Assembly (NCBI GenBank): GCA_018902545.1
Contig: JAHIQM010000002.1
Location: 62,001 to 126,000 of the forward strand
Reading direction: 5' to 3'
Length of the DNA: 64,000 nt
Source: Pseudomonadota bacterium
Lineage (GTDB): Bacteria; Desulfobacterota; Desulfovibrionia; Desulfovibrionales; Desulfomicrobiaceae
Of the stretch, positions 20,973-51,120 are shown in pieces (positions within the stretch are counted from its first letter, which is position 1; every line of letters starts with the position of its first letter). The notes under the pieces are model-generated. The model was not told the DNA's origin. It searched no databases and worked only from the letters and a program-made list of their open reading frames with translations. Made by a program: the position numbers and the translations under genes.

Positions 20973-22634
20973 ATGTCCTCACCAACCCTCGTCATCGGCA
21001 TCGACACCGGCGGCACCTACACCGACGCCATTGTGCTCGACCACTCATCGGGACAGGTCATGGCCGCGGTCAAGACCCCGACCACGGCCCACGACCCGGC
21101 GATAGGCATAGGCCGCAGCCTGGAAATGGCGCTTCGCGCCTCGGCCGTAGATCCCGGAAGCGTGGAACTCGTCACCGTGTCCACGACCCTGGCCACCAAC
21201 GCCCTGGTCGAAGACAAAGGCGCGGAGGTCGGACTCTTCGTCATCGGCCACGACAATCGCCTGCGCGTTCCGGCGGCGGACATGCGCTTCATCCCCGGCG
21301 GACACAAGGCCAGGGGGGTTGAATCCGAGCCACTGGGCATGAACTTTCTGGTCGACGGCATCGCCGCCATGAAAGACCGCGTGGACGCGTACGCCGTCTG
21401 TGCCATGCTCGCCTTCGAGGACCCGACCCACGAACTGGTCGCGGCCAGGGCCATCGAGCTGGTCGATCCCAAGCCCGTTTTCTGCTCGCACCAGGCCAGC
21501 ACCCGCCCCGGCATGGAAGAACGCGCCGCCACGGCCGTGCTGAACGCTCGCCTGCTGCCCGTCATGCAGGATTTCCTGCGCAGCATCGCCCGTTCCATGG
21601 AACGCCTCGGCCTGTCCTGCCCGGTGCGCATCGTGCGCGGGGATTGCCGAAGCATGAACCTGCAGGAGGCCGTGCGCAACTCCTCGGCTACCGTGGCCAG
21701 CGGTCCGGCGGCCACTGCCCTGTTCGGCGGACATGCCGCCGGGGACGAGACCGCGCTGGTCGTGGATGTGGGCGGCACCACCACGGACATCACCCTGATC
21801 AGAAACGGCCACCCCGTGGTTCGCGAGGAAGGCATGACCATCGGCTCCTGGCGCACCCACGTGCGGGCCGTGGAGATGTACACCGTCGGCCTTGGCGGCG
21901 ACAGTCTGGTCCGCGTCGAAAGCGGCAGGCTGTCCCTGGGGCCCGCCCGGGTTGTACCCCTGTCCCAGGCCCATCTTTACCTTGAAGGACCAGCCCTTGC
22001 GGCCGTGACCAATCCCCAGGCCTGGCTTGGAGCGGACCTCTGCGCCCAGTGCGTGCAGCTTGCTCCCGGAGTCGAGGCCGGAGACGACGCGATCCTGAAC
22101 TGGCTCGCCGAAAACGGGCCAGCCACACCCGCGCGCCTGCGGCAGGAGCTGGCCCTGGCCGAATCGAGCCTTGACAAGGCCATCCTCAGGCTACAGGCCG
22201 CGCGACTGGTCATCACTTGCGGCTTCACGCCCACCGACGCACTGCACGTCCTTGACCGCCTGCACCTGGGCGACAAGCTGCCCGCCATGCAGGGCGCAGA
22301 GGTGCTGGCCGCGTTGCTCGGACTTACCACCGAACTTTTCTGCGAACGCGTGCTTGAAAAGGCCCACGACACCATCGCCGCGACCATCCTCGGGGCCCTC
22401 GGCAACCGGGAAGTGGGCCCGGCCCTGACCCGGTTGCTGAATCAATCCGACCCCGACGCGCTGCTCGACATCACGATCCGCGTCCGGCCCCGCATCATCG
22501 GCATCGGCGCGGCAGCCCCGTTCCTGCTGCCGGAAGTCGCCGCCAGGCTCGGTACGACGGCGGTCTTTCCCAAACATTATGAAGTCGGCAACGCACTGGG
22601 CGCGGCCCTCATGGATACCACCAGCAAGGAGTGA
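20973..22634 (+). CDS. Hydantoinase/oxoprolinase-family protein (HyuA-like, short form)
   Basis: The 553-residue product has the ASKHA fold signature IDTGGTYTDA near residues 9-18, a second phosphate motif DVGGTTTDITL near 265, and a late IGIGAAAPFLLPEVA segment. It aligns with the N-terminal nucleotide-binding half of hydantoinase A / 5-oxoprolinase, but no HyuB partner is present. Such short forms are common in anaerobes, and their substrate is not established. AGGA precedes the ATG. Stop, ribosome-binding site and next start are interleaved with the gene at 22637, so they form an operon. Confidence 0.8.
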   Translation: MSSPTLVIGIDTGGTYTDAIVLDHSSGQVMAAVKTPTTAHDPAIGIGRSLEMALRASAVDPGSVELVTVSTTLATNALVEDKGAEVGLFVIGHDNRLRVPAADMRFIPGGHKARGVESEPLGMNFLVDGIAAMKDRVDAYAVCAMLAFEDPTHELVAARAIELVDPKPVFCSHQASTRPGMEERAATAVLNARLLPVMQDFLRSIARSMERLGLSCPVRIVRGDCRSMNLQEAVRNSSATVASGPAATALFGGHAAGDETALVVDVGGTTTDITLIRNGHPVVREEGMTIGSWRTHVRAVEMYTVGLGGDSLVRVESGRLSLGPARVVPLSQAHLYLEGPALAAVTNPQAWLGADLCAQCVQLAPGVEAGDDAILNWLAENGPATPARLRQELALAESSLDKAILRLQAARLVITCGFTPTDALHVLDRLHLGDKLPAMQGAEVLAALLGLTTELFCERVLEKAHDTIAATILGALGNREVGPALTRLLNQSDPDALLDITIRVRPRIIGIGAAAPFLLPEVAARLGTTAVFPKHYEVGNALGAALMDTTSKE

Positions 22635-27299: not shown

Positions 27300-27614
27300 A
27301 TGACCGCCTTCACGCACACGCTTGTGTTTTTGTTCATGCTGACCTTGCCTGGTCACGCCGGTCAGGGGACGGAGCCGGATGCTGCGGACGGCAGCCGGAA
27401 TTCTTCCCTGCGCTTTGAATCGGTTTTTGACGGCTACCAGTCCTACCGCCACCAATCCGTGGCTCCATGGAAGGAGTCCAACGAACGCGTCCGGGAAGTG
27501 GGCGGGTGGCGCAGCTATGCGCGGGAAGCGGCAGAGCCGGAAGGCCCCGAAGCTCCCCCGCGATCCGACCCCGACGCGTCGCGACCGGCGCATGATCACG
27601 GGAGCACGCCATGA
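27300..27614 (+). CDS. Small secreted protein of a copper-resistance operon
   Basis: The 104-residue product has a signal peptide (about 1-22, MTAFTHTLVFLFMLTLPGHA). A short conserved-looking block, FDGYQSYRHQSVAPWKESNERVREVG cut at about residues 42-67, is followed by WRSYAREA and a proline- and histidine-containing tail. Short periplasmic proteins with this block are known to me next to TolC and multicopper oxidase genes, but the function is not established. GGGGGA precedes the chosen ATG; an in-frame ATG at 27261 is an alternative. It overlaps the TolC-like gene by 4 nt (ATGA). Confidence 0.7.
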   Translation: MTAFTHTLVFLFMLTLPGHAGQGTEPDAADGSRNSSLRFESVFDGYQSYRHQSVAPWKESNERVREVGGWRSYAREAAEPEGPEAPPRSDPDASRPAHDHGSTP

Positions 27615-29038
27615 ACGCGATGACAGCCCTGTGCAAAGGATGTGCGCTTCTTGTCCTGCTGGGGGGCCTCGCCGGTTGCGCCACGGTGGACTTTGATCAG
27701 TCAGTGGCCAGGACCAACACCCAGGCCGCAGGCTTCACCCACGGTCAGCTCGCGCTGGCCCGTGACGCCGCGCAGCGCGACGCCATGGCCCTGCGGGCGT
27801 CCGAGTTGCTGTCCCGGCCGCTGAGCGAACCGGCCGCAGTGCAGCTGGCCCTGGCGAACAGCCCCTCGTTTCAGGCCCTGCTGGCCCGGAACTGGGCCAG
27901 CTCGGCCGATGCGGCCCAGTCGGGACGCCTGGCAAACCCTGTCTTCTCCTTCGAGCGTTTCCATGTTCTGGATGAAGTCGAGTTCGGCCGGCTTCTGAGC
28001 ATTGGGCTGCTCGATCTGCTGACCTTTCCGGTGCGCCAGGGCGTGGCGAAATCGCGTGTTGCGGCCGAAGAGCACAGGCTGACCCGCGATGTGGTGCGAC
28101 AGGTCACCGAGGTGCGTGGGGCCTGGGTGCGGGCCCTGGCCGCAAACGAGCGCCTCGGCTATGCGCGGCAGGTCTTTACTGCCGCCGAGGCTTCTGCCGA
28201 GCTGGCTCGCCGCATGCAGCAGGTCGGCAATTTCAACACCATCGAGCGGGTCAGGCAGCAGGGTTTCTATGCCGACGCGGCCACGCAGCTCGCCCTGGCC
28301 CGGCACGAGGCGACCGCCCGGCAGGAGGAGCTTATCCGCCAGTTGGGCCTTACCGAATCCCAGGTACCCCTGCTCATGCTGCCTGCTCGCCTGCCTGACC
28401 TCCCGGAGTCTGCACGCCAACCGGAGGACGTGAGCTCGGCGGCGCGGGACGGCAACCTCGATGTGCGCCTGGCGCAGGCCGAATTCGAGGCTGCGGCCAA
28501 GGCCCAGGGGCTCGGCCGCGTGACCAGCCTGGTCGATGTGGAGGCGGGGCTGCGACGCAACACGATCTTTGACAATGACTCCGGAGACAGGGCCACGGGA
28601 CGTGGTTACGAGCTGGACGTGACGCTGCCCCTGTTTGATTGGGGCGGCATGAAACGCGAGGCCATGAACGCGCGCACCCTGGCCGCCGGCCATGAGCTCG
28701 AGGCCGCCCTGCGCGGGTCCGGGTCCCGGCTGCGGGAAGGCTACTCGGCGTACCGCACCGCCCACGACATAGCTCGCCACTACCGGGAGGAGATCATCCC
28801 CCTGCAGCAGGTCATGGCCGAGGAAAACGTGTACCGTTACAACGCCATGCTCATCGGGGTTTTCGAATTGCTGGCAGACGCCAGGGAGCGAATCCGCGTG
28901 GTGCAGGCCGGCATTGATGCCCTGGAGGAGTTCTGGCGGGCGGACGCGGCCCTTGAGGCCGTGATCATGGGCACTGGGGGCGGTGGCGAACTTGCGGGCC
29001 CCGCGCCGCAAGGGGAGGCCGGCGATGCTGGACACTGA
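27611..29038 (+). CDS. TolC-family outer membrane efflux lipoprotein
   Basis: The 475-residue product has a lipoprotein signal ending at LAGC (C23). Two long helical repeats are typical of outer membrane efflux proteins; GYELDVTLPLFDWGG near 325-340 is a typical TolC strand-helix junction. It would form a trimeric outer membrane channel. No RND pump or membrane fusion protein lies in the operon, so it either borrows partners encoded elsewhere or has a specialised role. It starts within the stop of the upstream small protein, and the multicopper oxidase follows 30 nt later. Confidence 0.88.
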   Translation: MNAMTALCKGCALLVLLGGLAGCATVDFDQSVARTNTQAAGFTHGQLALARDAAQRDAMALRASELLSRPLSEPAAVQLALANSPSFQALLARNWASSADAAQSGRLANPVFSFERFHVLDEVEFGRLLSIGLLDLLTFPVRQGVAKSRVAAEEHRLTRDVVRQVTEVRGAWVRALAANERLGYARQVFTAAEASAELARRMQQVGNFNTIERVRQQGFYADAATQLALARHEATARQEELIRQLGLTESQVPLLMLPARLPDLPESARQPEDVSSAARDGNLDVRLAQAEFEAAAKAQGLGRVTSLVDVEAGLRRNTIFDNDSGDRATGRGYELDVTLPLFDWGGMKREAMNARTLAAGHELEAALRGSGSRLREGYSAYRTAHDIARHYREEIIPLQQVMAEENVYRYNAMLIGVFELLADARERIRVVQAGIDALEEFWRADAALEAVIMGTGGGGELAGPAPQGEAGDAGH

Positions 29039-29068
29039 TTTTTTTGCGGACTAGACAGCGAGGTCAAC

Positions 29069-30481
29069 ATGAATTCCAGAAGACGATTTTTGCAGGCTGC
29101 CGGACTGGCGGGCGGGGCCCTGGCCGCATCGGCCGTGTCCCGCGTCGCCCTGGCCGGGCTGCCGGAGGCGGTGGTGCAGACCTCGCCGGATACCATGCCG
29201 CCTCTGCACCCTCCGACGGGGTGCCCCTACAATCCGGTCGTGACCTTGAATGGCTGGACCCTGCCTTGGCGCATGAACAAGGGCGTCAAGGAGTTCCACC
29301 TCGTGGCCGAGCCCGTGGTGCGCGAGCTTGCTCCGGGGCTCAAAGCCCATCTGTGGGGGTACAACGGACAGAGTCCGGGGCCGACCATCGAGGTGGTGGA
29401 AGGCGACCGCTTGCGCATTTTCGTGACCAACAGGCTGCCCGAGCACACCAGCATCCATTGGCACGGCCAGCGCCTGCCCAATGGCATGGACGGCGTCTCA
29501 GGCCTGACCCAGCCCGCGATCCAGCCGGGCAAGACCTTCGTGTACGAATTCGTGGCCCGTCGGCCCGGCACCTTCATGTATCACCCGCACGCCGACGAGA
29601 TGACGCAGATGGCCATGGGCATGATGGGCTCCTGGGTCACGCATCCCAAGGCGAAGCACCCTCTGATCGACGAGGTGGACCGCGATTTCGTCTTTCTCCT
29701 GAACGCCTACGACATCGATCCGGGGAGCTATACGCCGAGGATCATGACCATGCTCGACTTCAACCTGTGGAGCTGGAACAGCCGGATTTTTCCGGGCATC
29801 GACTCCCTGAACGTGCGTCTGCACGACAAGGTCCGCATCCGCATCGGCAACCTGACCATGACCAACCACCCGATGCATCTGCATGGGCACGAATTCCTGG
29901 TCACGGGCACGGACGGCGGCCCCACCCCCAAGGGCACGCGCTGGTACGAGGTCACCACGGACGTGGCAGTGGGTCAGATGCGGCAGATCGAATTCGTGGC
30001 CGACGAGGAGGGCGACTGGGCCTTCCATTGCCACAAGAGCCACCACACCATGAACGCCATGGGGCACGACGTGCCGACCATGATCGGCGTGGACCATACT
30101 GGCCTTGCGCGCAAGATCACGTCCCTGATCCCGGACTACATGGTCATGGGCGAGCGCGGCATGGCCGACATGACCGAGATGGAGATGCCGCTGCCGGACA
30201 ACTCCATCCCCATGATGACCGGCCGCGGGCCTTTCGGGAGCGTCGAGATGGGCGGCATGTTCAGCGTGGTCAAGGTGCGCCGGAACCAGAAGCGCGGCGA
30301 TTATTCGAGCCCCGAGTGGTTCAGCCATCCGCCCGGAACGCAGGCCTATGAATTCGGCGGTGCATTGGCAGAGCCGGCGAGGGACTTTTCGGCCGGAGGA
30401 CAGTCCATGCCCAGGGCGCAGGAACCCGGCAACGAAATCGAGCTCAAGGTGCGCAAACCCGGACACGCCGGGCACGAATAA
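29069..30481 (+). CDS. Tat-exported multicopper oxidase (CopA/CueO-like)
   Basis: The 470-residue product starts with a twin-arginine signal (SRRRFLQ at 3-9, then a hydrophobic stretch to about 29). All four copper motifs are intact: HWHG (130-133), HPHAD (172-176), HPMHLHGH (267-274) and HCHKSHHTMNAM (320-331). They supply the type 1 site (Cys321, axial Met331) and the trinuclear centre. A methionine-rich C-terminal part (about 370-405: MVMGERGMADMTEMEM and further) resembles cuprous-oxidase substrate regions. It probably oxidises Cu(I) in the periplasm. It lies between the TolC-like and cupredoxin genes. Confidence 0.93.
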   Translation: MNSRRRFLQAAGLAGGALAASAVSRVALAGLPEAVVQTSPDTMPPLHPPTGCPYNPVVTLNGWTLPWRMNKGVKEFHLVAEPVVRELAPGLKAHLWGYNGQSPGPTIEVVEGDRLRIFVTNRLPEHTSIHWHGQRLPNGMDGVSGLTQPAIQPGKTFVYEFVARRPGTFMYHPHADEMTQMAMGMMGSWVTHPKAKHPLIDEVDRDFVFLLNAYDIDPGSYTPRIMTMLDFNLWSWNSRIFPGIDSLNVRLHDKVRIRIGNLTMTNHPMHLHGHEFLVTGTDGGPTPKGTRWYEVTTDVAVGQMRQIEFVADEEGDWAFHCHKSHHTMNAMGHDVPTMIGVDHTGLARKITSLIPDYMVMGERGMADMTEMEMPLPDNSIPMMTGRGPFGSVEMGGMFSVVKVRRNQKRGDYSSPEWFSHPPGTQAYEFGGALAEPARDFSAGGQSMPRAQEPGNEIELKVRKPGHAGHE

Positions 30482-30491
30482 GGATGCGACC

Positions 30492-30971
30492 ATGATTATA
30501 CTGCGAGCGGCCTTGATCCTGTTGTTCTGCGCGGGCATGGCCTGGAGTCACGGCACGGAGCACGAATCGGTCACGCCCGTCCTGCGTGAACAGCAGGAAT
30601 GGGGAATCGCGGGCGACACCGACGCCGTGACCCGGACCGTGTCGGTGCGCATGCTCGACACCATGCGCTTCGTGCCGGATGAAATCGAGGTGCGGCTGGG
30701 AGAGACCGTACGTTTTGTCGTCAGGAACGAAGGCCGGATGATGCACGAATTCGTCATCGGCACGCAGGTCGAAAACAAGGCTCACGCGGCGCTCATGCTC
30801 AGATATCCGAACATGGAGCATGAAGCAGCGCACATGGCGCATGTCGCGCCGGGCAGGGAAGGCGAGGTCGTCTGGCTTTTCAACCGGCCCGGAGAATTCG
30901 AGTTTGCCTGCCTTATTGCCGGGCATTATCAGGCGGGCATGATCGGAATTATCCGTGTTGTCGGGCAATGA
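30492..30971 (+). CDS. Periplasmic cupredoxin with His/Met-rich insert
   Basis: The 159-residue product has a signal peptide (about 1-19). The plastocyanin-like domain has a complete type 1 copper ligand set: H85 (MMHEFVIG), C140, H145 and M150 (FACLIAGHYQAGMIG). Between strands, residues 98-118 carry several histidines and methionines (NMEHEAAHMAHV) that could bind Cu(I) transiently. It would carry copper or electrons for the neighbouring oxidase. It starts 10 nt after the oxidase stop with AAGGA upstream. Confidence 0.9.
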   Translation: MIILRAALILLFCAGMAWSHGTEHESVTPVLREQQEWGIAGDTDAVTRTVSVRMLDTMRFVPDEIEVRLGETVRFVVRNEGRMMHEFVIGTQVENKAHAALMLRYPNMEHEAAHMAHVAPGREGEVVWLFNRPGEFEFACLIAGHYQAGMIGIIRVVGQ

Positions 30972-31007
30972 CCTGTTTTTGAACACTCTGACTTTAGGAG
31001 GAACGCC

Positions 31008-31346
31008 ATGCTGAGATGCACGCGCATCATGCTCATGATCTTGTGCGCTTTTTCGTTCTTTATGCCCGTCAAATTCGCGTCTTCCCAAGTGCTGGGAGAG
31101 CCTGTCCTTGTGGTGGCGCAAAGCGATATGACGCGGGGCGATGTCAAAAGGATCGACAAGGAAAACAAGAAGATAACCATCAGGCACGATGAAATCAAGA
31201 ACCTGAACATGCCGCCCATGACCATGGTTTTCCAGGTCAGGGACGCTTCGCTGCTCGATAGGGTGCGCACCGGGGACAAGGTCCGGTTCCGTGCCGTGGA
31301 AGAGGGCGGGACGCTCGTAATCACCGACATGCAACCCGATTTCTGA
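31008..31346 (+). CDS. CusF-like periplasmic copper-binding protein
   Basis: The 112-residue product has a signal peptide (about 1-26) and the small OB-like CusF domain: GDVKRIDKENKKITIRHDEI then NMPPMTMVF. The copper ligands H60, M71 and M73 correspond to CusF H36, M47 and M49. CusF's Trp44 position is methionine here (M68), a variant common in the wider family. It would deliver Cu(I) or Ag(I) to exporters. AGGAGGAAC precedes the ATG. It is the last gene of the copper operon. Confidence 0.88.
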   Translation: MLRCTRIMLMILCAFSFFMPVKFASSQVLGEPVLVVAQSDMTRGDVKRIDKENKKITIRHDEIKNLNMPPMTMVFQVRDASLLDRVRTGDKVRFRAVEEGGTLVITDMQPDF

Positions 31347-31670: not shown

Positions 31671-34559
31671 ATGCCCTCTCACCTCCCATCGGATGACCGC
31701 TGCTTGGCCGGAAATACCGGACCAGAACGAGAAGAACACCTGCGCGACGCGCTGATGAACGCCCCCGTCGGATTCTCCATGGCCGCGCCGGGCGGAGGGA
31801 TACTTTTCGCCAACCCGGCCCTGGCCAGGATGTTCGGGTACGACACGCCCGAAGAGTTGCTGGCTGACGCACCTCAAATCATCACTAGCCTCCATGACGG
31901 CACCGGCACGTCCCCCACAAACCGGGAATTGCGCCTCCAGCACAGGGACGGATCGTTCATCTGGGTGTCCGGAAGCACCAGAATCGCATACACCCCGGAC
32001 GGCGACATTTCGCACTCGCAGACCTTCACTGCCGACATTTCCGAGGCCAAACGCATGGAAGCCGCCCTGCGAGCCAGGGAAGAAAGTACGTCCCTGCTTG
32101 TCGGCAGTCTGCCGGGCATGGCCTTCCGCCGCCGCAACGACAGCGACCTGAGCATGGATTTCGTCTCCGAGGGCTGCCTGGGCCTGACGGGATACAGCAG
32201 TGAGGAACTGCTGCACGGCAGTCGCCTCTCGTTCAACGACCTCATCCTTCCCGAGTACCGGCAAAAAGTCCGGGAAAACTGGAATAAAGGCATTCAAAGA
32301 CGCGCCCCGGTGCAGATCGAATTTGAGATCATGACCGCCGACGGCCAGCCCAAATGGGTCTGGGAAGTGGGTATCCCCGTGCAGGCGCCCGGCGGCGAGG
32401 CTGAGACCCTCGAAGGGCTGATCATCGACATCACCCCTCGCAAGTTCGCGGAAAAAAACTCGCTCCTGCGGGAAAAGGCACTGGAACTCGCGGCCGCGAC
32501 CTCCCTTGAACTTCTGCTGGAGCCGGACCTGGATCAGTCCATGGTCAGGGTCCTGGCCTGCCTCGGCCAAGGCACGGACACGGACCGGGTTTACGTCTTC
32601 AGGAACCATGCGAATGAAGAATCCGGCGTGGTGCTGACCAGTCAGATCTATGAATGGGCGCGGCCGGGAATTCCCGTCCAGCTCGACAACCCCGATCTGC
32701 AGAACCTGCCCATGAACGAAATCACGCCCCGCTGGCTAAAGGAACTGCGCGACGGCCGATCCATCAGGGGACTGGTCAGTGATTTTCCCGCTGCGGAGCG
32801 AATGATCCTCGAACCGCAGGGCATCGTCAGCATTCTGGTGGTGCCCATCCAGCTGCACGGCAGGCTGTGGGGCTTTCTGGGTTTCGACTCGGTGCGTTCA
32901 CCCCGTTGCTGGACGCCTATCGAGGAGCATGTCCTGAACATCGTCTCCGCCAGTCTGGGCGCGGCCATTGCGCGCAGACAGGCGCAAGAGGAACTGGGCA
33001 ACACCAACCGGACCCTCATGACCATCCTCGACAGCCTCCCTGTCAACGTCTACGTGGCCGACCTCACGACCTACCGCATCCTGTTCATGAACCGTCATAT
33101 AAAGGAAAGCTTCGGGCGCGACTGCACCGGAGAACTGTGCCACGCGGCGTTCAACCACGAGTCCACCCCCTGCGGCCATTGCACCAACAGCCGCCTGCTG
33201 GACGAACACGGCCGCCCGGCAGGGGTCACCGCCTGGGAATGCTTCAACTCCGTGACCGGAAAATGGTACAGAAACTTCGACCAGGCCATCCCCTGGATCG
33301 ACGGGCGCCTCGTGCGCATCGAGATCGCCATGGACCTAAGCGATCGCAAACAGGCGGAAAAGGAACTCCTGTGCGCCAGAGACCTGGCCGAAGCCGCAAA
33401 CTGCGCCAAGTCCGAATTCCTGGCCAACATGAGTCACGAACTGCGCACCCCTTTGAACGGAATCATGGGCATGCTCCAGCTCCTGCAACTGACGGAATTG
33501 ACAGCGGTCCAGGAAGACTACACGGACACGGCCATCCTGTCCTGCAACAGGCTGGTGCGACTCTTGACCGACATCCTCGACCTCTCGCGCATCGAGGCGG
33601 GCAAACTTACCATCCAGAGCACGCCCATGGCCCTGTCCGAATTGCTGCGTCAGACAAGCGACCTGTTCTTGCCCATTGCCCGGGAAAAAGGACTTGTGCT
33701 GAGCTTCGAACTGGACCCGGACGTCCCGGAGCATGTCCTCGGCGACGCAACTCGCCTGCAACAGGTTTTGAGCAACATGGTGGGCAACGCCATCAAATTC
33801 ACCCATGCTGGCGCGGTCACCGTCGAGGCATCCCTTCTTCCGGCCTTGCAGCGCGGCCAGTCCCGGGTGTTCTTCTCCGTCGCCGACACCGGCATCGGCA
33901 TCCCCGACGACAAGCTGAACAACCTCTTCAGACCCTTTTCCCAGATCACGGAAGGATACACCCGCAGCTACCAGGGCGCAGGCCTTGGCTTATCCATCTG
34001 CAAACGACTGGTGACCTTCATGGGCGGAAACATTTCCGTGGTCAGCGAGCCCGGAGCAGGCACGACCATGTCTTTCAGCGTCACCTTCGGCACCGCCGCA
34101 CCGAACACCGCGTCCGCGCCTGGCCGCGAGACCTTTTTCGCCCCCGCTCTGGACGGCTTGAAGGTGCTCATGGCCGAAGACGACCATTTCAGCGGCATTC
34201 TGGGCATGAAGCTCCTGGGGGCGTTCGGGGCCACGGTCAGGCATGTGCAGAATGGACAGCAAGCCCTCGAAACCCTCGAAAACGAGGCCTTCGATCTTGT
34301 GCTCATGGATGTGCAGATGCCGGTCATGGACGGCGTCGAGGCCACGCGCCGCATCCGCCTGGGCGAAGTCGGAAACGCCGCAAAAAACACCCCCATCATT
34401 GCCATGACCTCCTACGCCATGGACGGCGACCGGGAAAAATTCCTGCAGGCGGGCATGAATGCCTATGTGGCCAAGCCTGTGGACATCAAGGACCTGATGA
34501 GTGCCATCTCGGAAATGCTGAGCAGGAAAATATCGGGTGCAGCGCAAGGCAGCCACTGA
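31671..34559 (+). CDS. Multi-sensor hybrid histidine kinase (PAS-PAS-GAF-PAS-HisKA-HATPase-REC)
   Basis: The 962-residue cytosolic kinase lacks a signal peptide or membrane helix. A first PAS is at about 20-130 and a second at about 135-265. A GAF-like domain at about 280-440 (IVSILVVPIQLHGRLWGFLGFD) is followed by a third PAS at about 450-565 holding a cysteine cluster (CTGELCHAAF..CGHC). HisKA has phospho-acceptor H589 in [15 protein letters not shown]. HATPase has GTGIGI-type and [10 protein letters not shown] boxes. The receiver has D880 in [11 protein letters not shown]. The C-x2-C pair may bind metal or heme. No response regulator with an output domain is adjacent, so the relay partner is elsewhere. 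Confidence 0.93.
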   Translation: MPSHLPSDDRCLAGNTGPEREEHLRDALMNAPVGFSMAAPGGGILFANPALARMFGYDTPEELLADAPQIITSLHDGTGTSPTNRELRLQHRDGSFIWVSGSTRIAYTPDGDISHSQTFTADISEAKRMEAALRAREESTSLLVGSLPGMAFRRRNDSDLSMDFVSEGCLGLTGYSSEELLHGSRLSFNDLILPEYRQKVRENWNKGIQRRAPVQIEFEIMTADGQPKWVWEVGIPVQAPGGEAETLEGLIIDITPRKFAEKNSLLREKALELAAATSLELLLEPDLDQSMVRVLACLGQGTDTDRVYVFRNHANEESGVVLTSQIYEWARPGIPVQLDNPDLQNLPMNEITPRWLKELRDGRSIRGLVSDFPAAERMILEPQGIVSILVVPIQLHGRLWGFLGFDSVRSPRCWTPIEEHVLNIVSASLGAAIARRQAQEELGNTNRTLMTILDSLPVNVYVADLTTYRILFMNRHIKESFGRDCTGELCHAAFNHESTPCGHCTNSRLLDEHGRPAGVTAWECFNSVTGKWYRNFDQAIPWIDGRLVRIEIAMDLSDRKQAEKELLCARDLAEAANCAKSEFLANMSHELRTPLNGIMGMLQLLQLTELTAVQEDYTDTAILSCNRLVRLLTDILDLSRIEAGKLTIQSTPMALSELLRQTSDLFLPIAREKGLVLSFELDPDVPEHVLGDATRLQQVLSNMVGNAIKFTHAGAVTVEASLLPALQRGQSRVFFSVADTGIGIPDDKLNNLFRPFSQITEGYTRSYQGAGLGLSICKRLVTFMGGNISVVSEPGAGTTMSFSVTFGTAAPNTASAPGRETFFAPALDGLKVLMAEDDHFSGILGMKLLGAFGATVRHVQNGQQALETLENEAFDLVLMDVQMPVMDGVEATRRIRLGEVGNAAKNTPIIAMTSYAMDGDREKFLQAGMNAYVAKPVDIKDLMSAISEMLSRKISGAAQGSH

Positions 34560-34665
34560 TCTCCAGGGTCATCCCGCCAAACATCCCGCAGAGATGCGCT
34601 GTACCATGCGCTGCAAAAAGTCTGACACATATTGCAGCCGCTGACATTGTGTGACAGAAAAAATT

Positions 34666-35664
34666 ATGCTCCGCTTAATCCCCTTCATCATCCTCCTGGC
34701 CTTGTTTGCGACGGCGGGCCCTTACACCGCAAAGGCTGACGGAAAAACCGGCAAAAAAGTGCTGATCGTGCACAGTTACGACCGCAATTTTGCCTGGACA
34801 GCTGACATCCATGACGCCCTGGAACGGATGTTTGCAAAGCATCAAATCCAAATGCGCACCATGTTCATGGACGCCAACATCAACCACGACGAGGCCAGCC
34901 TCACAGCCGCGGGACAGAAAGCGACCGATCTGGTGGACAGCTTCAGGCCGGACGTGGTCATAACCAGCGACGACGATGCGCAGCAGTATTTCGCGGCACG
35001 GTTTGCAGGCGACAGCTCGGCCCCGGCCTTCGTTTTCTGCGGGGTCAATCAGGACCCGGCGCGGTACGGCTATCCCGCGATCAACGTCACGGGCGTCGTC
35101 GAGGAGCTTGCCTGGAGCGAAAGCCTGAAGCTGCTGCGCCGCCTGGACCCGGGCATCCGCAGGGTCGCGGTGCTCCTGGACTCCAGGTCATCAAGCCTGG
35201 CAGCGGTCCGTCCGATGCGCGCCTCGACCCCGGCCGACATCGAAGCCGAATGGATCATTGTCGATACCTACCAAAAATGGCGACAGCTGGTTGAATCCAG
35301 CAGTGCAACCCACGACGCCCTGGCCATCGTGAACTATCACGGGCTGACCGATGCCGAGGGCCGGATTGTCCCAAGCCAGGAAGTCATGCACTGGACCCGC
35401 GAGCATGCAAACATCCCCTCCCTGGGATTTTTCGACTACACCGTCGCCGACGGAGCCCTCTGCGGCGTGATCCAGACCGGATTCGAGCACGGGACCCTGG
35501 CGGCAGACATGGCCCTGCGCATCCTGAGCGGCGAACGCGCCGCAGACATCCCCATCGTGAGCACAACGCGAGGCCTGACCATGCTCAACCTGAAAATGGC
35601 CAGGAAACTGCGCATCGACATCCCGGAAAATCTCCTTCAGGAGGCGACAGCACTTGTGGAATAA
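34666..35664 (+). CDS. Orphan ABC_sub_bind-type periplasmic binding protein
   Basis: The approximately 332-residue product has a signal peptide (MLRLIPFIILLALFATAGP). It has the two-lobed periplasmic binding protein fold of the PF04392 type: KVLIVHSYDRNFAWTADIHDAL, FRPDVVITSDDDAQQYF and FVFCGVN. A GTG at 34651 is an alternative start. No ABC permease or ATPase is present. Its C-terminus overlaps the next kinase by 11 nt, and that kinase's own periplasmic domain is a paralogue of this protein. It is therefore more likely a ligand-sensing partner than a transport component. Confidence 0.85.
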   Translation: MLRLIPFIILLALFATAGPYTAKADGKTGKKVLIVHSYDRNFAWTADIHDALERMFAKHQIQMRTMFMDANINHDEASLTAAGQKATDLVDSFRPDVVITSDDDAQQYFAARFAGDSSAPAFVFCGVNQDPARYGYPAINVTGVVEELAWSESLKLLRRLDPGIRRVAVLLDSRSSSLAAVRPMRASTPADIEAEWIIVDTYQKWRQLVESSSATHDALAIVNYHGLTDAEGRIVPSQEVMHWTREHANIPSLGFFDYTVADGALCGVIQTGFEHGTLAADMALRILSGERAADIPIVSTTRGLTMLNLKMARKLRIDIPENLLQEATALVE

Positions 35665-37930
35665 AGCCTTGTCCCTGCTGACAGTGCTGCTGGGCCTGAG
35701 CGTTCTGTGCGCACAGGCCCAGACCGTCCCCAACATTCTGGTCATCCACTCCTACAATCCGGGCCTGAGTTGGACCGACGACATACACCAGGGCATCATC
35801 GAGACCTTTTCCGCGTCCGGGAAGCCCTGGTCGATCAGCACCGAGTACCTGGACGCCAAAAGATATCCTCACGAACACATACTCAGGATGCAGTCTGAAC
35901 TGATCGCGACCCACGTGCGCGATCACGCCGTAAGCGCAGTCATTGTCTCCGATGACGCCGCTTTCGACTTCGTTTTGCAGCATCGCGACGAACTCTTTGA
36001 AAACGTCCCCATAATCTTCTGCGGCGTGAACAATTTCCAGCCGGAAATGCTTGGCGGCGCGGAGGGCATCACGGGCGTATCGGAAATGATCTCCGTACGC
36101 GAGACACTGGATGCGGCCCTGGCCCTGCAACCCGACACGCGCAACGTGGTCATCATCGGAGGCTCGATTTCCAGCACGGACAGATCAAACCGCAGCAAGT
36201 TTCTGCGGCTCATGCCCTCCTATGCCGGGCGACTGCGCTTTCATTTCTGGCAGGACATCCCTACCCCGGTGCTGCTGGAAAAAGTGGAGACTTTAAGCCC
36301 GAAAACGCTCATTTTCCTGGCCAACGCCATTGCCGGACTGGATGGACGCATGCTTGACTTCGGCCCCAGTGTTGCACTGGTCAAGGCCAACACGCAAAGC
36401 CCCATCTACGGTTTCTGGGATTTTTTCCTGGGACACGGCATCGTTGGCGGCAAACTGGTCAACGGAGCCGAACACGGCAGGATCGCGGCCCGCATGGCCC
36501 TGCAAATCCTGGACGGGACCGCGCCCGCAGACCTGCCCGTGGTCCGGGAAGTGGCCAACCGATACCTCTTCGACCACCGGGAACTGACTCGCTTCAACCT
36601 AGATGAAAAGGCCTTGCCCGAAGGTTCCGTCATCGTGCATCGGCCCCAAAGTGTCTTCGAGGCCAACAAACGGCTCTTCCTGATCTTCGGCAGCGTCGTC
36701 ATCACGTTGCTCGTCATCATCATTTCCCTGACCCTGGTCATGCACATTCGCAAGCAGACCCTTCTGGAACTGCAATCGGCAAGGCGCAAGGCCGAAGAGG
36801 CCAATGAAGCCAAAAGCCTTTTTCTGGCACACATGAGCCACGAGATCCGCACCCCTCTGACCGGGATCATGGGCCTGGCCGAACTGGCGCTCGGCAATCC
36901 CGGCAGCCCGAACGTGCAGGAATATCTGACCCTCATCCGCCAGTCCGGACAAAACCTGCTGCACATCATCAATGACATTCTCGATTTCTCAAAAGTCGAA
37001 GCCGGAAAAATCGAGCTGCAAAATACCAGCTTCGACGTCCAAAACATGCTTGAGGTCGCCATCGCCTTCTTCAATACCGGCCTCAAGGAAAAGGATGTCA
37101 CCCTGTCCCTTGTCCTGGCCCAAGAACTGCCCAGGACGGTACTTGGCGATGAAAACAGGATCCGTCAGATTTTCTTCAACCTGGTGGGCAATGCGGTCAA
37201 ATTCACCGAAAAGGGAAAAATTGAACTGCGCCTGTCAGGGCTGACCTGCGAAGACGACAGCCCCCGCATGATGCTGGATTTTGAAATATCGGACACCGGA
37301 TGCGGCATCCCCGCGGACAAGCTGCACAGCATCTTCGAGCGTTTCACCCAGGCAGCGCACTTTCCGACCAGAACCTATCAGGGCACGGGGCTGGGATTGG
37401 CCATCGTCAAACAGCTCATCGAGGCCATGGGCGGCTCTATCAGGGTGCAGAGCACGGAAGGAACCGGAACCACATTTTTCTTCAGCATCCCGGTCGAGCG
37501 GACATTGCCGGAAGAGGCTGCGCAAGGGCCGGCGCAGGATGGAGAGCCCCGCATACATGAGCTGTCCGTCCTGGTCACCGAGGACAATCCGATCAACCGG
37601 CTCTTCCTGCAAAGATCCCTGGAAAAGCTCGGACACCGGGTCATCTGCGCCACCAACGGCCAGGAAGCGCTGGATATTCTGGCGACCGACACCGTGGACT
37701 GCGTGCTCATGGACATCCAGATGCCGGTCATGGACGGGAGCCTGGCCACACGGTATATACGAGACAAATTCGGACACGATCTGCCCGTCATCGCACTCAC
37801 CGCCCACGCCATGCAGGGTGACAGGGAAAAATATATGGAGGAAGGATTTGACGAATACCTGGCCAAGCCCATCTCCATCAAGGATCTGACCATGATCATT
37901 GCACACGTATGCGGCAAGAAAACACCGTAA
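35654..37930 (+). CDS. Hybrid histidine kinase with ABC_sub_bind periplasmic sensor
   Basis: The start is a TTG with AGGAGG 8 nt upstream, inside the preceding gene. The 758-residue product has a signal/anchor (about 1-23) and a periplasmic binding-protein-like sensor (about 25-330; NILVIHSYNPGLSWTDDIH, IIFCGVN). A membrane helix spans about 345-370 (LFLIFGSVVITLLVIIISLTL cut). HisKA has H396 ([15 protein letters not shown]), HATPase has DTGCGIP and GTGLGLAIVK, and the receiver has D687 (LMDIQMPVMDG). It senses a periplasmic ligand and relays by phosphotransfer. It is coupled to the orphan binding protein before it. Confidence 0.92.
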   Translation: MWNKALSLLTVLLGLSVLCAQAQTVPNILVIHSYNPGLSWTDDIHQGIIETFSASGKPWSISTEYLDAKRYPHEHILRMQSELIATHVRDHAVSAVIVSDDAAFDFVLQHRDELFENVPIIFCGVNNFQPEMLGGAEGITGVSEMISVRETLDAALALQPDTRNVVIIGGSISSTDRSNRSKFLRLMPSYAGRLRFHFWQDIPTPVLLEKVETLSPKTLIFLANAIAGLDGRMLDFGPSVALVKANTQSPIYGFWDFFLGHGIVGGKLVNGAEHGRIAARMALQILDGTAPADLPVVREVANRYLFDHRELTRFNLDEKALPEGSVIVHRPQSVFEANKRLFLIFGSVVITLLVIIISLTLVMHIRKQTLLELQSARRKAEEANEAKSLFLAHMSHEIRTPLTGIMGLAELALGNPGSPNVQEYLTLIRQSGQNLLHIINDILDFSKVEAGKIELQNTSFDVQNMLEVAIAFFNTGLKEKDVTLSLVLAQELPRTVLGDENRIRQIFFNLVGNAVKFTEKGKIELRLSGLTCEDDSPRMMLDFEISDTGCGIPADKLHSIFERFTQAAHFPTRTYQGTGLGLAIVKQLIEAMGGSIRVQSTEGTGTTFFFSIPVERTLPEEAAQGPAQDGEPRIHELSVLVTEDNPINRLFLQRSLEKLGHRVICATNGQEALDILATDTVDCVLMDIQMPVMDGSLATRYIRDKFGHDLPVIALTAHAMQGDREKYMEEGFDEYLAKPISIKDLTMIIAHVCGKKTP

Positions 37931-37975: not shown

Positions 37976-39238
37976 ATGCACCGGCATCGTAAACCAAACA
38001 TCTCCAGCGCATACATGCGGTTCACGTCAATCCTTTCGACCGTGAGTTTCCTGCTGCTGGGCACCCTCTGGATCGGAGACGCCCTCTATCACTTCGAAGA
38101 GGATAGCAGGCTCATACGCCAGGAATTCATGGAGGCCCGCAAAAAAGAGGTCAAGCAGGAAGTCGACGTCTTGCTGGCCAAGGTCGAGGACCAGAGGGCC
38201 AGTCTAAATGATCTCTTGCGCAACGACATCCGTGCGCGGGTTAATGAGGCGTGGTCCGTGGCCGACAACCTTTATCGCCTCAATGCGACAAGCAAGAGCG
38301 AAAAGGACGGCAAGACGCTCATCTGTCTGATGTCGAGCGAAGCGCTGAGCATCGAAGAGGATGCCTATTCTCTGAACGTATGCCACGACGTGACCGAACA
38401 GAAGAAAATCCAGGAAGTGATGATCCAGAGCGAAAAAATGATCTCCGTTGGCGGCATTGCCGCAGGCATCGCCCATGAGATCAACAATCCGCTGGGAATT
38501 GTCCTGCAGGCTTCACAGAACCTGGTTACCAGAACCAGACCCGATTTTCCGAAAAACCTGGAAGTCGCCCGCGATATCGGCCTCGATCTGGAATTGCTTG
38601 ATCGCTACATGAAGGAGCGCAAGCTCCATGTCTTCATCGAGGACATCCGCGAAGCAGGCAAGCGCGCAGCCTTCATCGTGCGCAACATGCTCGACTTCAG
38701 CCGTCGCAGCGAGAGCGAGCGAAGGCTATGCAGCATGCGCGACATCGCTGAGAAGTCGCTGAGCCTGGCGGGCAGCGACTATGATCTCAAGAAAAACTAC
38801 GACTTCAAAAGGATCCGGGTCGAAATCTTGCAGGAGGGCGATATTCCCCTTGTCTTCTGCAGCGAGACCGAAATCGAACAGGTTTTTCTGAACCTCTTCC
38901 GCAATTCGGCCCAGGCCATCTCCGACTCGGCCAAACCCGTACAGAACCCGCGCATCAGCGTACGCATTTCCTCCGCGGGCGATTGGGTGCACATCGAAAT
39001 CGATGATAACGGACCAGGAATCCCCCAGGAAGTACAGCGGCGCATCTTTGAGCCATTCTTCACCACCAAGAAGCCGGGAGAGGGCACAGGTCTGGGGCTC
39101 TCGGTGAGCTATTTCATCATCACCCGCGGGCACGGAGGAAGAATTTACGCCGCGACCAATGAAGAAGGCGGGACACGCTTCACCATTGAGTTGCCGATCA
39201 CGGGTGTCCAGGACGCCACGGAAGAGCGCCCGGCCTGA
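37976..39238 (+). CDS. Sensor histidine kinase with apparent in-frame loss of its sensor domains
   Basis: The 420-residue product has an N-terminal membrane helix (about 17-37), then a coiled region ([23 protein letters not shown]) of the kind that opens a Cache sensor. At about residue 110 this joins directly to [32 protein letters not shown], which looks like the last strands of a PAS domain. The expected 250-350 residues of Cache and PAS are missing. The kinase core is intact: H167 ([11 protein letters not shown]) and the HATPase boxes ([20 protein letters not shown]). No receiver is attached. GAGG precedes the ATG. Confidence 0.85.
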
Positions 39239-47687: not shown

Positions 47688-47929
47688 GCTTGCCGAAAAA
47701 TAAAGTGGCGTATGATGCGCATTTTCCTTTTCACGGCAAGGGGCTAAAGAAATGAGCGATGCGAGCGGCGCCCCGCATGCTATGGAATTTTTCCCGCCGA
47801 CCCGGCTTTCCCTTTACACGATGGCGGCAATTGAGCAGTAATTTTTTGAGGAGCCACACAATCATCCTGATGAACCCTTCTCTTGACTTGCTCAGGGAAA
47901 CCTCACGAAAATTCGTGGAGGAAGGACGC

Positions 47930-48937
47930 ATGGCAAAATCTTTTGAGTCACACAAAGCGGCCCGAAATATTCTCGCCATTTGCGCCGTCGCGCTGATTCT
48001 CCTCGCCCCTCCCGCCGCTGCGCAGGATCTCCAGATGCTGCGCATTGGCACAGGAGGGCTGCTTGGCGTGTATTACCCTGTGGGCAAGGCCCTGGCCGAA
48101 GGGATCACCAAAGCCGCCATCGCGCCGGATCTTATTGCGGTGGAGCAGACAAGCGGAGGGTCCGTAGACAACCTTCACGCCCTGCTTGCCGGAGAAATCG
48201 AAGTCGGACTGGTGCAGGCGGATGTCGCCCATCGGGCCCTGCAAAGAGAAGAGCCCTTTACGGAACTCGGCGGGGCAGACCAGGTGCGCGCCGTGGCCAG
48301 CCTGTATCCGGAGCACCTTCAGATTCTCACCAGACGCGACGCAGGCATTCGAAGGATTCAGGATTTTCGGGGCAAGTCGGTGTCCCTGGACGAAGTCGGT
48401 TCAGGCACCCTCGCGGTCATGCGCATTGTCCTCGATGCTCACGGCCTCGGGGAAAAGGATTTTGACCCGGTCTATCTGAAGCCCGAGTTCACCCAGGAGC
48501 GTCTGGCCGGTGGCAAATTGCAGGGTTTCTGCCTCATGGCCGGCACTCCGACCAAGGCCATCGCCGACATCATCAACCAGGATTACTCTCTGGTGCCAAT
48601 CGAACCGGAAATCGGTGCCCGTATCAGCCATGCCTACCCCTACCTCGCTGCGGGATTCATCCCCGCAGACGCGTACCAGGGGGTTCCGCAAACTCCGACC
48701 CTCGAAGTCCACGCCCTGATGGTGGTCCGGGACGATATGGATGAGCAGCTGGTGTACCGGATGACCGAGGCTCTCTGGAACGAACAGACGCAGACCCTGT
48801 TGCGCGAGGCCCATCCGCAGGGCCAGCATGTAACTCTTGATTCATCGCTGAGCGGCATATCCATCCAGCTGCATCCCGGTGCCCGGCGGTTCTACGAAGA
48901 CAAGGGGCTCCTGCCGCGTGGGAGCAGCCTGCCGTGA
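47930..48937 (+). CDS. TAXI-family (TRAP-type) periplasmic binding protein
   Basis: The 335-residue product has a signal peptide (about 1-31) and the TAXI signature: LRIGTGGLLGVYYPVGKALA, SGGSVDNLHALLAGEIEVGLVQADVAHRA (ends quoted, about 65-93), and FRGKSVSLDEVGSGT. The family normally delivers organic acids to TRAP transporters. Here no DctM/DctQ-type membrane gene is present. Instead the stop overlaps the GTG start of a hybrid kinase by 4 nt. GGAGGAAGG precedes the ATG. A sensing role with the kinase is inferred. Confidence 0.88.
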   Translation: MAKSFESHKAARNILAICAVALILLAPPAAAQDLQMLRIGTGGLLGVYYPVGKALAEGITKAAIAPDLIAVEQTSGGSVDNLHALLAGEIEVGLVQADVAHRALQREEPFTELGGADQVRAVASLYPEHLQILTRRDAGIRRIQDFRGKSVSLDEVGSGTLAVMRIVLDAHGLGEKDFDPVYLKPEFTQERLAGGKLQGFCLMAGTPTKAIADIINQDYSLVPIEPEIGARISHAYPYLAAGFIPADAYQGVPQTPTLEVHALMVVRDDMDEQLVYRMTEALWNEQTQTLLREAHPQGQHVTLDSSLSGISIQLHPGARRFYEDKGLLPRGSSLP

Positions 48938-51120
48938 AACTGTCCAGACGAGACGCGGAGTCATCTTTCTGGATCATCGTCGCAGCGCTTGTGGTGATGA
49001 TCTTAAGCGCCGGCGTCTTTATCAACCTGACCCTGCGTTCCCTGGAGCGCAACCTGCCCACCACCCTGCTCGGCCAGCTCGAATACCTGAACCGGGTCAC
49101 GGATGGACTCAGCCACCTGACGACGACTGCCGCCGTCATTGCTCACAGTCCCGAGCCCGCAGCCCTCTCGCGCATGGTAAAGGACGTTGACGGAGTCTTT
49201 GCGGAGCTGGTGCAGATGCGCAACACCTACGTTTTCGACAATCTGGTCCAGGCCTCAGCCTTTCATTCCGCCGTGGCCCCTTCCCTGGTAGACGTCCGGC
49301 AATGGCTGACCCAGGGTGTTTCAGGCCAGTCCCCTGACTCGCCCCTGACCCTGCACATCGTTCACTCACGGCTGCACAACACGCTCATGAAGGCATCCTC
49401 CCTGCGCAACGAATCCCACGCCGCGGCCCAGGCCGTCCTCCACGATCAACGCAGCAGTCTGGAAAAATTCATCAGCGGGGTCAACCTGCTCCTGCTGCTG
49501 ACCGCCCTAATCTCCCTGCTGGTCCTGGCCCTGATGTTCCGGCAGCAGAGTCTCGCACGCCGCGAGTCCAGGGCGCAGGCCGAGCGCGAGCTGCTCATCA
49601 CCATCCTTGAATCGACCAGCGACCTCGTTTGCACCGTCGGGCCTGACGGACAGCTCACCTTTCTCAACCAGGCCGGACGCAGGCTGCTGGGTATGGACGC
49701 AGAAGAGCCCCTGGGCGGCCGTACCATCGCCGACCTGCATCCCGCCTGGGCCATGGAGAAAATCCGCATGAAAGGCCTGCCCGCAGCCGCTTCTCCGGCC
49801 GGGCTGTGGGAAGGGGAAAACGCCGTCCTGCACCGGGACGGGCGGGAGATTCCCGTCTCGCAGGTCATCTTGTGCCATGGCCGCAGCGACAATTTTATCG
49901 GGCATTACTCCATCATCATGCGCGACATCACCGAATACAAGCGCTCCGAGGCGGCGCTGCTCCATTCCAAACTGCAAGCCGAATTCGCCAACCAGGCCAA
50001 AAGCGAATTTCTGGCCAATATGAGCCACGAAATACGCACGCCCATCAACGGCGTCATGGGTATGCTGCAACTGCTTCAGGCTGGCACCCTCGATGCCGAG
50101 CAGACAAGTTACACAACAACTGCCATCCAATCCTGCAAACGGCTGGTGCGCCTTTTAAGCGACATTCTGGATCTCTCCCGCATCGAGGCCAAAAAGCTCT
50201 CCATCCAGCTCGCCCCCATGAGCGTTTCGAACGTCTTTTGCCAGACCCGCGACCTTTTTTTGCCCATCGCGCACAAAGCGGAGGTCGAACTGTGTTTTGA
50301 CACGGACCCGACTCTTCCGGCGAAAGTCCTCGGAGATGCGGCCCGCTTGCAGCAGGTGCTGTTCAACCTGGTCGGCAATGCCCTCAAGTTCACCCCGTCA
50401 GGCAACGTCACGGTTGCGGCTCACGCTCTTTCGCCCCTGAAACCGGGGCATGGCAGGGTGCTCTTTTCGGTTTGCGACACGGGCATCGGCATCCCTGACG
50501 AAAATCTGGGCACCCTTTTCGAACCGTTTTCCCAGGTCGATTCGGGATATACCCGCTCACATCAGGGCGCAGGCCTCGGTTTGTCGATCTGTAAACGCCT
50601 GGTGCATCTCATGGGCGGGAGCATCTCCGTTGTCAGCGAGGCGGGTGTGGGCACGAGCATATATTTCACCCTGGACTTCGAGGTCGAGTCGGGCCTTGAG
50701 CGCTTTACCTTGGCCAAGGACGCCGTCCCGACCATCTCTCTGGGCGGAAGGAAAATCCTCCTGGCCGAGGACGATCCCGTCAGCGCCATGGCCGCACGCG
50801 CGGTACTGCAGAAGCAAGGCGCCACGGTGAGCCATGTCCAGGACGGTCAAGCGGCGATTGAAGCCTTGACCCGCGATACTTTCGATCTGGTGCTTATGGA
50901 CGTGCAGATGCCGGTCATGGATGGAGTGGAAGCCACCAAGGCCATCCGCGCGGGCCGTTGCGGAGAAGGGAGCAGGAATATCCCCATCGTCGCGCTCACA
51001 GCCTACGCCATGGCCGGAGACAAGGACATATTTCTGGATGCAGGCATGAACGGCTACGTGGAAAAGCCCGTGACCATCAAAGATCTGCTGCTCGCCATTA
51101 GCAATGTTCTGGAACATTGA
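48934..51120 (+). CDS. Hybrid histidine kinase coupled to the TAXI protein
   Basis: The GTG start overlaps the TAXI stop. The 728-residue product has a membrane helix (about 12-32), a helical periplasmic region (to about 175), a second helix (about 182-203) and a PAS domain (about 220-340; [15 protein letters not shown]). HisKA has H365 ([15 protein letters not shown]), HATPase has DTGIGIPD and [12 protein letters not shown], and the receiver has D656 ([11 protein letters not shown]). The small periplasmic domain fits one that reads the state of a bound partner protein. Its HisKA-HATPase-REC core is a close paralogue of the kinase at 31671. Confidence 0.92.

Follow-up and report, generated by a model that had tools for sequence, protein, structure and literature searches.

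Two overlapping genes (34666-35664 and 35654-37930, both on the plus strand) in the window, a 64,000-nucleotide stretch of a 3.7-Mb Desulfomicrobiaceae genome, probably encode a single receptor, in which, by analogy with known systems, a signaling binding protein would dock on the ectodomain of a hybrid histidine kinase. SBP-docked kinases are already known, as in LuxP/LuxQ and TorT/TorS, and the new feature here is the PBP-type receptor lobe. Pfam names usually file binding proteins under transport. Members of the clade to which the free protein of this pair belongs carry the annotation "ABC transporter substrate binding protein," and they are linked to receptors in nearly every case, across several phyla, three ectodomain types, and both kinase and chemoreceptor outputs. 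In the Desulfomicrobium pair, a receptor and its homologous co-receptor came together by joining, not by duplication, and they offer a test case for the evolution of docking between SBPs and receptors.

The free periplasmic binding protein (34666-35664, plus strand; 332 amino acids [aa]) is PF04392-like and has a type-I PBP fold. Its open reading frame runs from an ATG at 34666 to a stop codon ending at 35664, with an alternative GTG start at 34651. The N terminus is hydrophobic and signal peptide-like by hydropathy, which suggests secretion, and there is no lipobox cysteine, the only cysteines being residues 125 and 266. The protein scores 61.7 bits against PF04392, above the gathering cutoff of 25.9, with a match that covers profile positions 104 to 291 only, and it does not reach the cutoff of the TrpX equivalog NF041285 (61.4 versus 390). 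The AF2 model (pLDDT, 94.8) has its top fold match in CD0873 (6hnj; Z, 26.4; 3.1 Å over 278 residues). The hybrid kinase (35654-37930, plus strand; 758 aa) comprises an N-terminal hydrophobic segment, a PBP-type ectodomain, a transmembrane helix, and HisKA, HATPase_c, and REC domains (PF00512, residues 386 to 451; PF02518, 498 to 615; PF00072, 639 to 749), with the catalytic motifs intact at H396 and D687. The ectodomain (35717-36667, plus strand; residues 22 to 338) is homologous to the free protein and is joined to the kinase part by a helix placed by a hydropathy scan at about residues 341 to 360 (36674-36733, plus strand). Although it falls just under the PF04392 cutoff (24.8 versus 25.9), its nearest folds are PF04392 structures, the top match of the AF2 model (pLDDT, 93.1) again being CD0873 (6hnj; Z, 24.8; 4.2 Å over 283 residues). 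No SBP_bac_3 domain (PF00497) was matched in the kinase, which has a single ectodomain. The LuxQ (NF041947; 331.5 versus 1200) and TorS (TIGR02956; 397.5 versus 676.5) equivalog cutoffs were not reached, and both matches span the kinase and receiver part only. The profile search of the kinase returned neither an Hpt nor a DNA-binding domain, and no output regulator gene lies beside the pair; nine Hpt matches are found elsewhere in the genome.

The free protein and the kinase ectodomain are related well beyond chance in BLASTP (25% identity over 316 columns, 86.7 bits, E value of 1e-23). The sequence-only reading had noted a common opening pattern and an FCGVN turn in the two lobes, and both are indeed present (HSYD..W..DIH in the free protein, HSYN..W..DIH in the kinase). 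An alignment of 38 free sequences and 40 borne by kinases or cyclases shows that both groups conserve S37, Y38, W44, D69, D102, A105, F124-C-G-V-N128, and E146 (numbered as in the free protein). The remaining positions are clade specific, among them W205, W243, and C266 versus W255, F257, and G265 in the C-lobe, and the ligands of the two lobes may therefore differ. The same reading took the pair for a duplicated ligand sensor, and as a local event this does not hold. A quick tree of 105 rows set free and receptor-borne domains almost fully apart, the exception being a gammaproteobacterial row (L089_3500, a 401-aa frame) placed among the fused domains. In a careful tree of 56 rows, from which most long branches were left out, the two kinds of domain lie on opposite sides of one branch with 100/100 support, and an AU test on this tree rejected a topology forcing the 16 Desulfomicrobium pair members together (delta lnL, 143; p-AU, 0.0005). 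Local or tandem duplication is thus ruled out as the origin of the pair, which was assembled from two old lineages that were not copied from each other.

The two genes meet at a translational coupling site (35639-35664, plus strand), where an AGGAGG (35639-35644) inside the binding-protein gene sits 9 nt upstream of the TTG start of the kinase at 35654 and the TAA of the binding-protein gene occupies 35662-35664. With this TTG as the start, the genes overlap by 11 nt, and both reading frames and the overlap were confirmed as first described. Conservation of the pair in relatives had been set as a test of a functional tie between the orphan binding protein and the kinase, and the pair was found intact in 8 of the 16 Desulfomicrobium genomes, being absent or unseen in the other 8. 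The overlap is identical in all eight pairs, and the AGGAGG and TTG are invariant in every pair compared (the window, L045 to L049, L051, and L065, the pair locus of the same-genus genome G007), down to 60% protein identity. Only one of the 16 genus genomes, G002, has an ortholog of the kinase lobe (>60% identity) with no free protein, and this lobe lies at a contig end, so that its neighbor cannot be seen. The dN/dS ratios against relatives, formed from computed dN and dS values, are all well below 1, at 0.09 to 0.23 for the ectodomain, 0.17 to 0.27 for the cytoplasmic part, and 0.22 to 0.36 for the free protein. Both the free protein and the kinase lobe are under purifying selection, and the lobe, as the most constrained part of the pair, is no relic, which rules out a vestigial domain. 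Within the window's pair, the kinase lobe is nearest to those of L048 and L049, whereas the nearest relative of both the free protein and the cytoplasmic part is L045; judging from these affinities, the lobe has possibly recombined relative to the rest of the pair.

Linkage to receptor genes extends through the clade of the free protein. This clade holds 41 free proteins from Desulfovibrionales and Planctomycetota, four of which lie at a contig end and were not scored. A member was counted as linked when the next gene encoded a kinase, hybrid kinase, or chemoreceptor, or when a further protein of this kind stood between it and a kinase; by this count 36 of the 37 scorable members, not all independent since close relatives are included, lead on the same strand into a receptor gene, and the corresponding figure for the sister free clade is 0 of 19. 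The sole unlinked member is the long-branch row L089. Because the loci were collected through their similarity to the window's protein, the counts apply to this clade rather than to all of PF04392. Partner ectodomains are mostly dCache_1 or CHASE, the usual receptors in Desulfovibrionaceae and Planctomycetota, and a PBP domain occurs in Desulfomicrobium only. Some Desulfovibrionaceae loci run on into receiver and receiver-HD-GYP genes, such as DVUL_RS15410-RS15425 on pDVUL01 of Nitratidesulfovibrio vulgaris DP4. The best explanation of these gene neighborhoods is that the clade is devoted to signaling rather than transport. In titles and abstracts of the open-access literature, no paper describing a PF04392 or COG2984 domain as a kinase sensor was recognized. 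A search of viral contigs gave no match to the free protein and one distant match to the kinase lobe. In a family relative, L060 (5692-13746, plus strand), a single kinase gene is preceded by three binding-protein genes, one of Peripla_BP_4 and two from this clade, and the array is followed by a hydantoinase-like gene that is 49% identical to that at 20973-22634 of the window. The genus keeps one more free protein of the superfamily, which has no receptor gene adjoining it (L062, L091, L093, L094, L096, and L100), and genes read from the sequence as NiFe-hydrogenase-like lie near it in L062 and L093. The downstream HK2-type kinase core was considered as a marker of PBP partners and proved unspecific, with 6 to 11 copies in each Desulfomicrobium genome searched.

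We infer a course of signaling in which the soluble binding protein, once secreted, would capture a small ligand in the periplasm and then dock on the kinase dimer at its PBP-type ectodomain. Docking would shift the balance between autokinase and phosphatase activities, and phosphate would pass from H396 to D687 and on to an Hpt protein and a regulator encoded elsewhere. Translational coupling would hold binding protein and kinase in a fixed proportion, and in Desulfomicrobium the binding protein would work with a receptor lobe that is its own ancient relative. The kinase lobe may also bind a ligand on its own.

Among characterized SBP-activated kinases, 10 of 11 are gene linked to their binding proteins; AgtS and AruS, however, were not activated by the SBPs of nearby genes, so gene linkage is no proof of function (PMC11113362). 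LuxP, TorT, and XylFII associate with their kinases whether or not ligand is present (PMC6321045), and CuaDSR is a recent three-component case (PMC10384115). The pair presents one feature of SBP-dependent kinase systems, a gene-linked transmembrane kinase with conserved linkage. As in LuxPQ, TorTS, XylFII-LytS, and CuaDSR, a predicted secreted binding protein is gene linked to a membrane kinase, which in LuxQ and TorS is likewise a hybrid kinase, but the binding protein here differs from all four in being PF04392-like. LuxQ, TorS, and LytS have receptor ectodomains of non-PBP kinds, either Cache-like or helical. Unlike them, the receptor lobe here is itself a type-I PBP domain, and since the three kinase complexes named as having solved structures (LytS, TorS, and LuxQ) use non-PBP ectodomains, docking on a PBP lobe would be without that precedent. 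TorT from the TorS-TorT complex also resembles the two models (Z, 16.1 and 17.8), hardly more than many other type-I PBPs do. The tandem Venus-flytrap kinases BvgS and EvgS are likewise hybrid kinases with a bilobed binding-protein ectodomain, but both of their lobes lie in one chain and belong to another SBP family, whereas one lobe here is supplied in trans. The ectodomains of BvgS and EvgS are SBP_bac_3 domains. The genus also keeps a diguanylate cyclase that carries two PBP domains of this superfamily in tandem (L061:1440-3977, minus strand; orthologs L110 to L117). This tandem PBP-GGDEF protein (G000 C10) resembles the pair in having two same-superfamily domains in one receptor, but both domains belong to the fused clade and none to the free clade, and the output is GGDEF; it is thus ruled out as a natural fusion of the pair.

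A conventional transport role, in which the free protein would act as the SBP of an ABC importer encoded elsewhere, is very improbable. PF04392 proteins of solved structure (TrpX and CD0873) bind aromatic amino acids as parts of uptake systems, and the genome has 20 BPD_transp_2 permease matches, but these all occur as neighboring, LivHM-like pairs, none of them near a PF04392 homolog, and the binding-protein clade is nearly always linked to receptors. The sequence-only reading had reported no ABC permease or ATPase nearby, and this was borne out: no ABC ATPase lies within 20 kb of the pair, the nearest of the 83 ABC_tran matches of the genome being at about 60886 of the window, 23 kb past the pair, and the nearest BPD_transp_2 permease is >90 kb away. 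A matching permease and ATPase elsewhere in the genome had been named as a test, and none adjoins any of the genome's 10 homologs, which together with the retention of the pair in half of the Desulfomicrobium genomes upholds the tie between binding protein and kinase. The canonical PF04392 protein of the genome sits behind a HAMP-chemoreceptor gene. The closest solved structures for both lobes are 6hnj/6hni (the tyrosine binder CD0873), 3lft (Trp), and 3lkv (Phe), and side-chain selection in CD0873 is made by Glu-263 and Tyr-279 (PMC6816091). In the profile alignment these two residues are aligned with the free-protein positions F256 and G272, and they correspond by homology to W255 and G271 of the kinase lobe; the selecting positions are thus not kept, and an aromatic amino acid ligand is not to be assumed. 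The pair also differs from these nearest structural relatives, TrpX (3lft), CD0873 (6hnj), and VC_1101 (3lkv), in having no linked permease or ATPase.

Other relations between the two lobes can be weighed against docking. The free protein could concentrate or deplete a ligand, the same as or related to that of the kinase lobe, and pass it on with no stable complex; the N-lobe motifs kept in both lobes (SY..W, D69, D102, FCGVN, and E146) and the purifying selection on both agree with this, but the clade-specific C-lobe residues suggest that the ligands may differ, and the same clade adjoins Cache and CHASE receptors in relatives, for which docking is the simpler common theme, so that such a hand-over seems unlikely. 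About equally unlikely is that the free protein serves another receptor, such as the dCache kinase at 37976 or a chemoreceptor of the genome, and that the kinase lobe senses alone. The Cache or CHASE partners usual in Desulfovibrionaceae and Planctomycetota point in this direction, as does an intact dCache_2 kinase directly after the pair in G006, but L046 to L049 and L051 have no dCache kinase behind the pair, that of the window has lost most of its Cache domain, and the overlap between the genes of the free protein and the PBP-type kinase does not vary. Somewhat less remote, though still doubtful, is a heteromeric flytrap receptor, in which the soluble protein would pair lobe to lobe with the kinase lobe, as in a class-C receptor heterodimer; two ligands would be integrated, or one would be read by two lobes, and an exchangeable soluble lobe would set the specificity.

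The pair lies in a cluster of kinase genes. Directly upstream, a PAS-PAS-GAF hybrid kinase with no predicted transmembrane helix (31671-34559, plus strand; 962 aa) is a candidate accessory component; a PAS-GAF hybrid kinase is also found upstream of the pair in L045 to L049 and is absent in L051. Downstream, a shortened sensor kinase (37976-39238, plus strand; 420 aa) retains dCache_2 positions 5 to 81 of 298. Its counterpart at the same place in G006 is a 942-aa dCache_2-PAS-PAS kinase, and about 520 residues present there, including most of dCache_2 and the PAS domains, are missing in the window, through either an in-frame deletion or an assembly effect. Copper genes (OEP, multicopper oxidase, cupredoxin, and CusF; 27611-31346, plus strand) lie beside the kinase cluster, and a link with the pair was ruled out, as they do not adjoin it in L045 to L049. 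A second pair of binding-protein and hybrid-kinase genes occurs in the window (47759-48937 and 48934-51120, plus strand), with a 4-nt overlap. Its layout is the same, and its binding protein is of the unrelated NMT1_3 (TAXI-type) SBP family; its kinase has 728 aa and two transmembrane helices about 150 residues apart.
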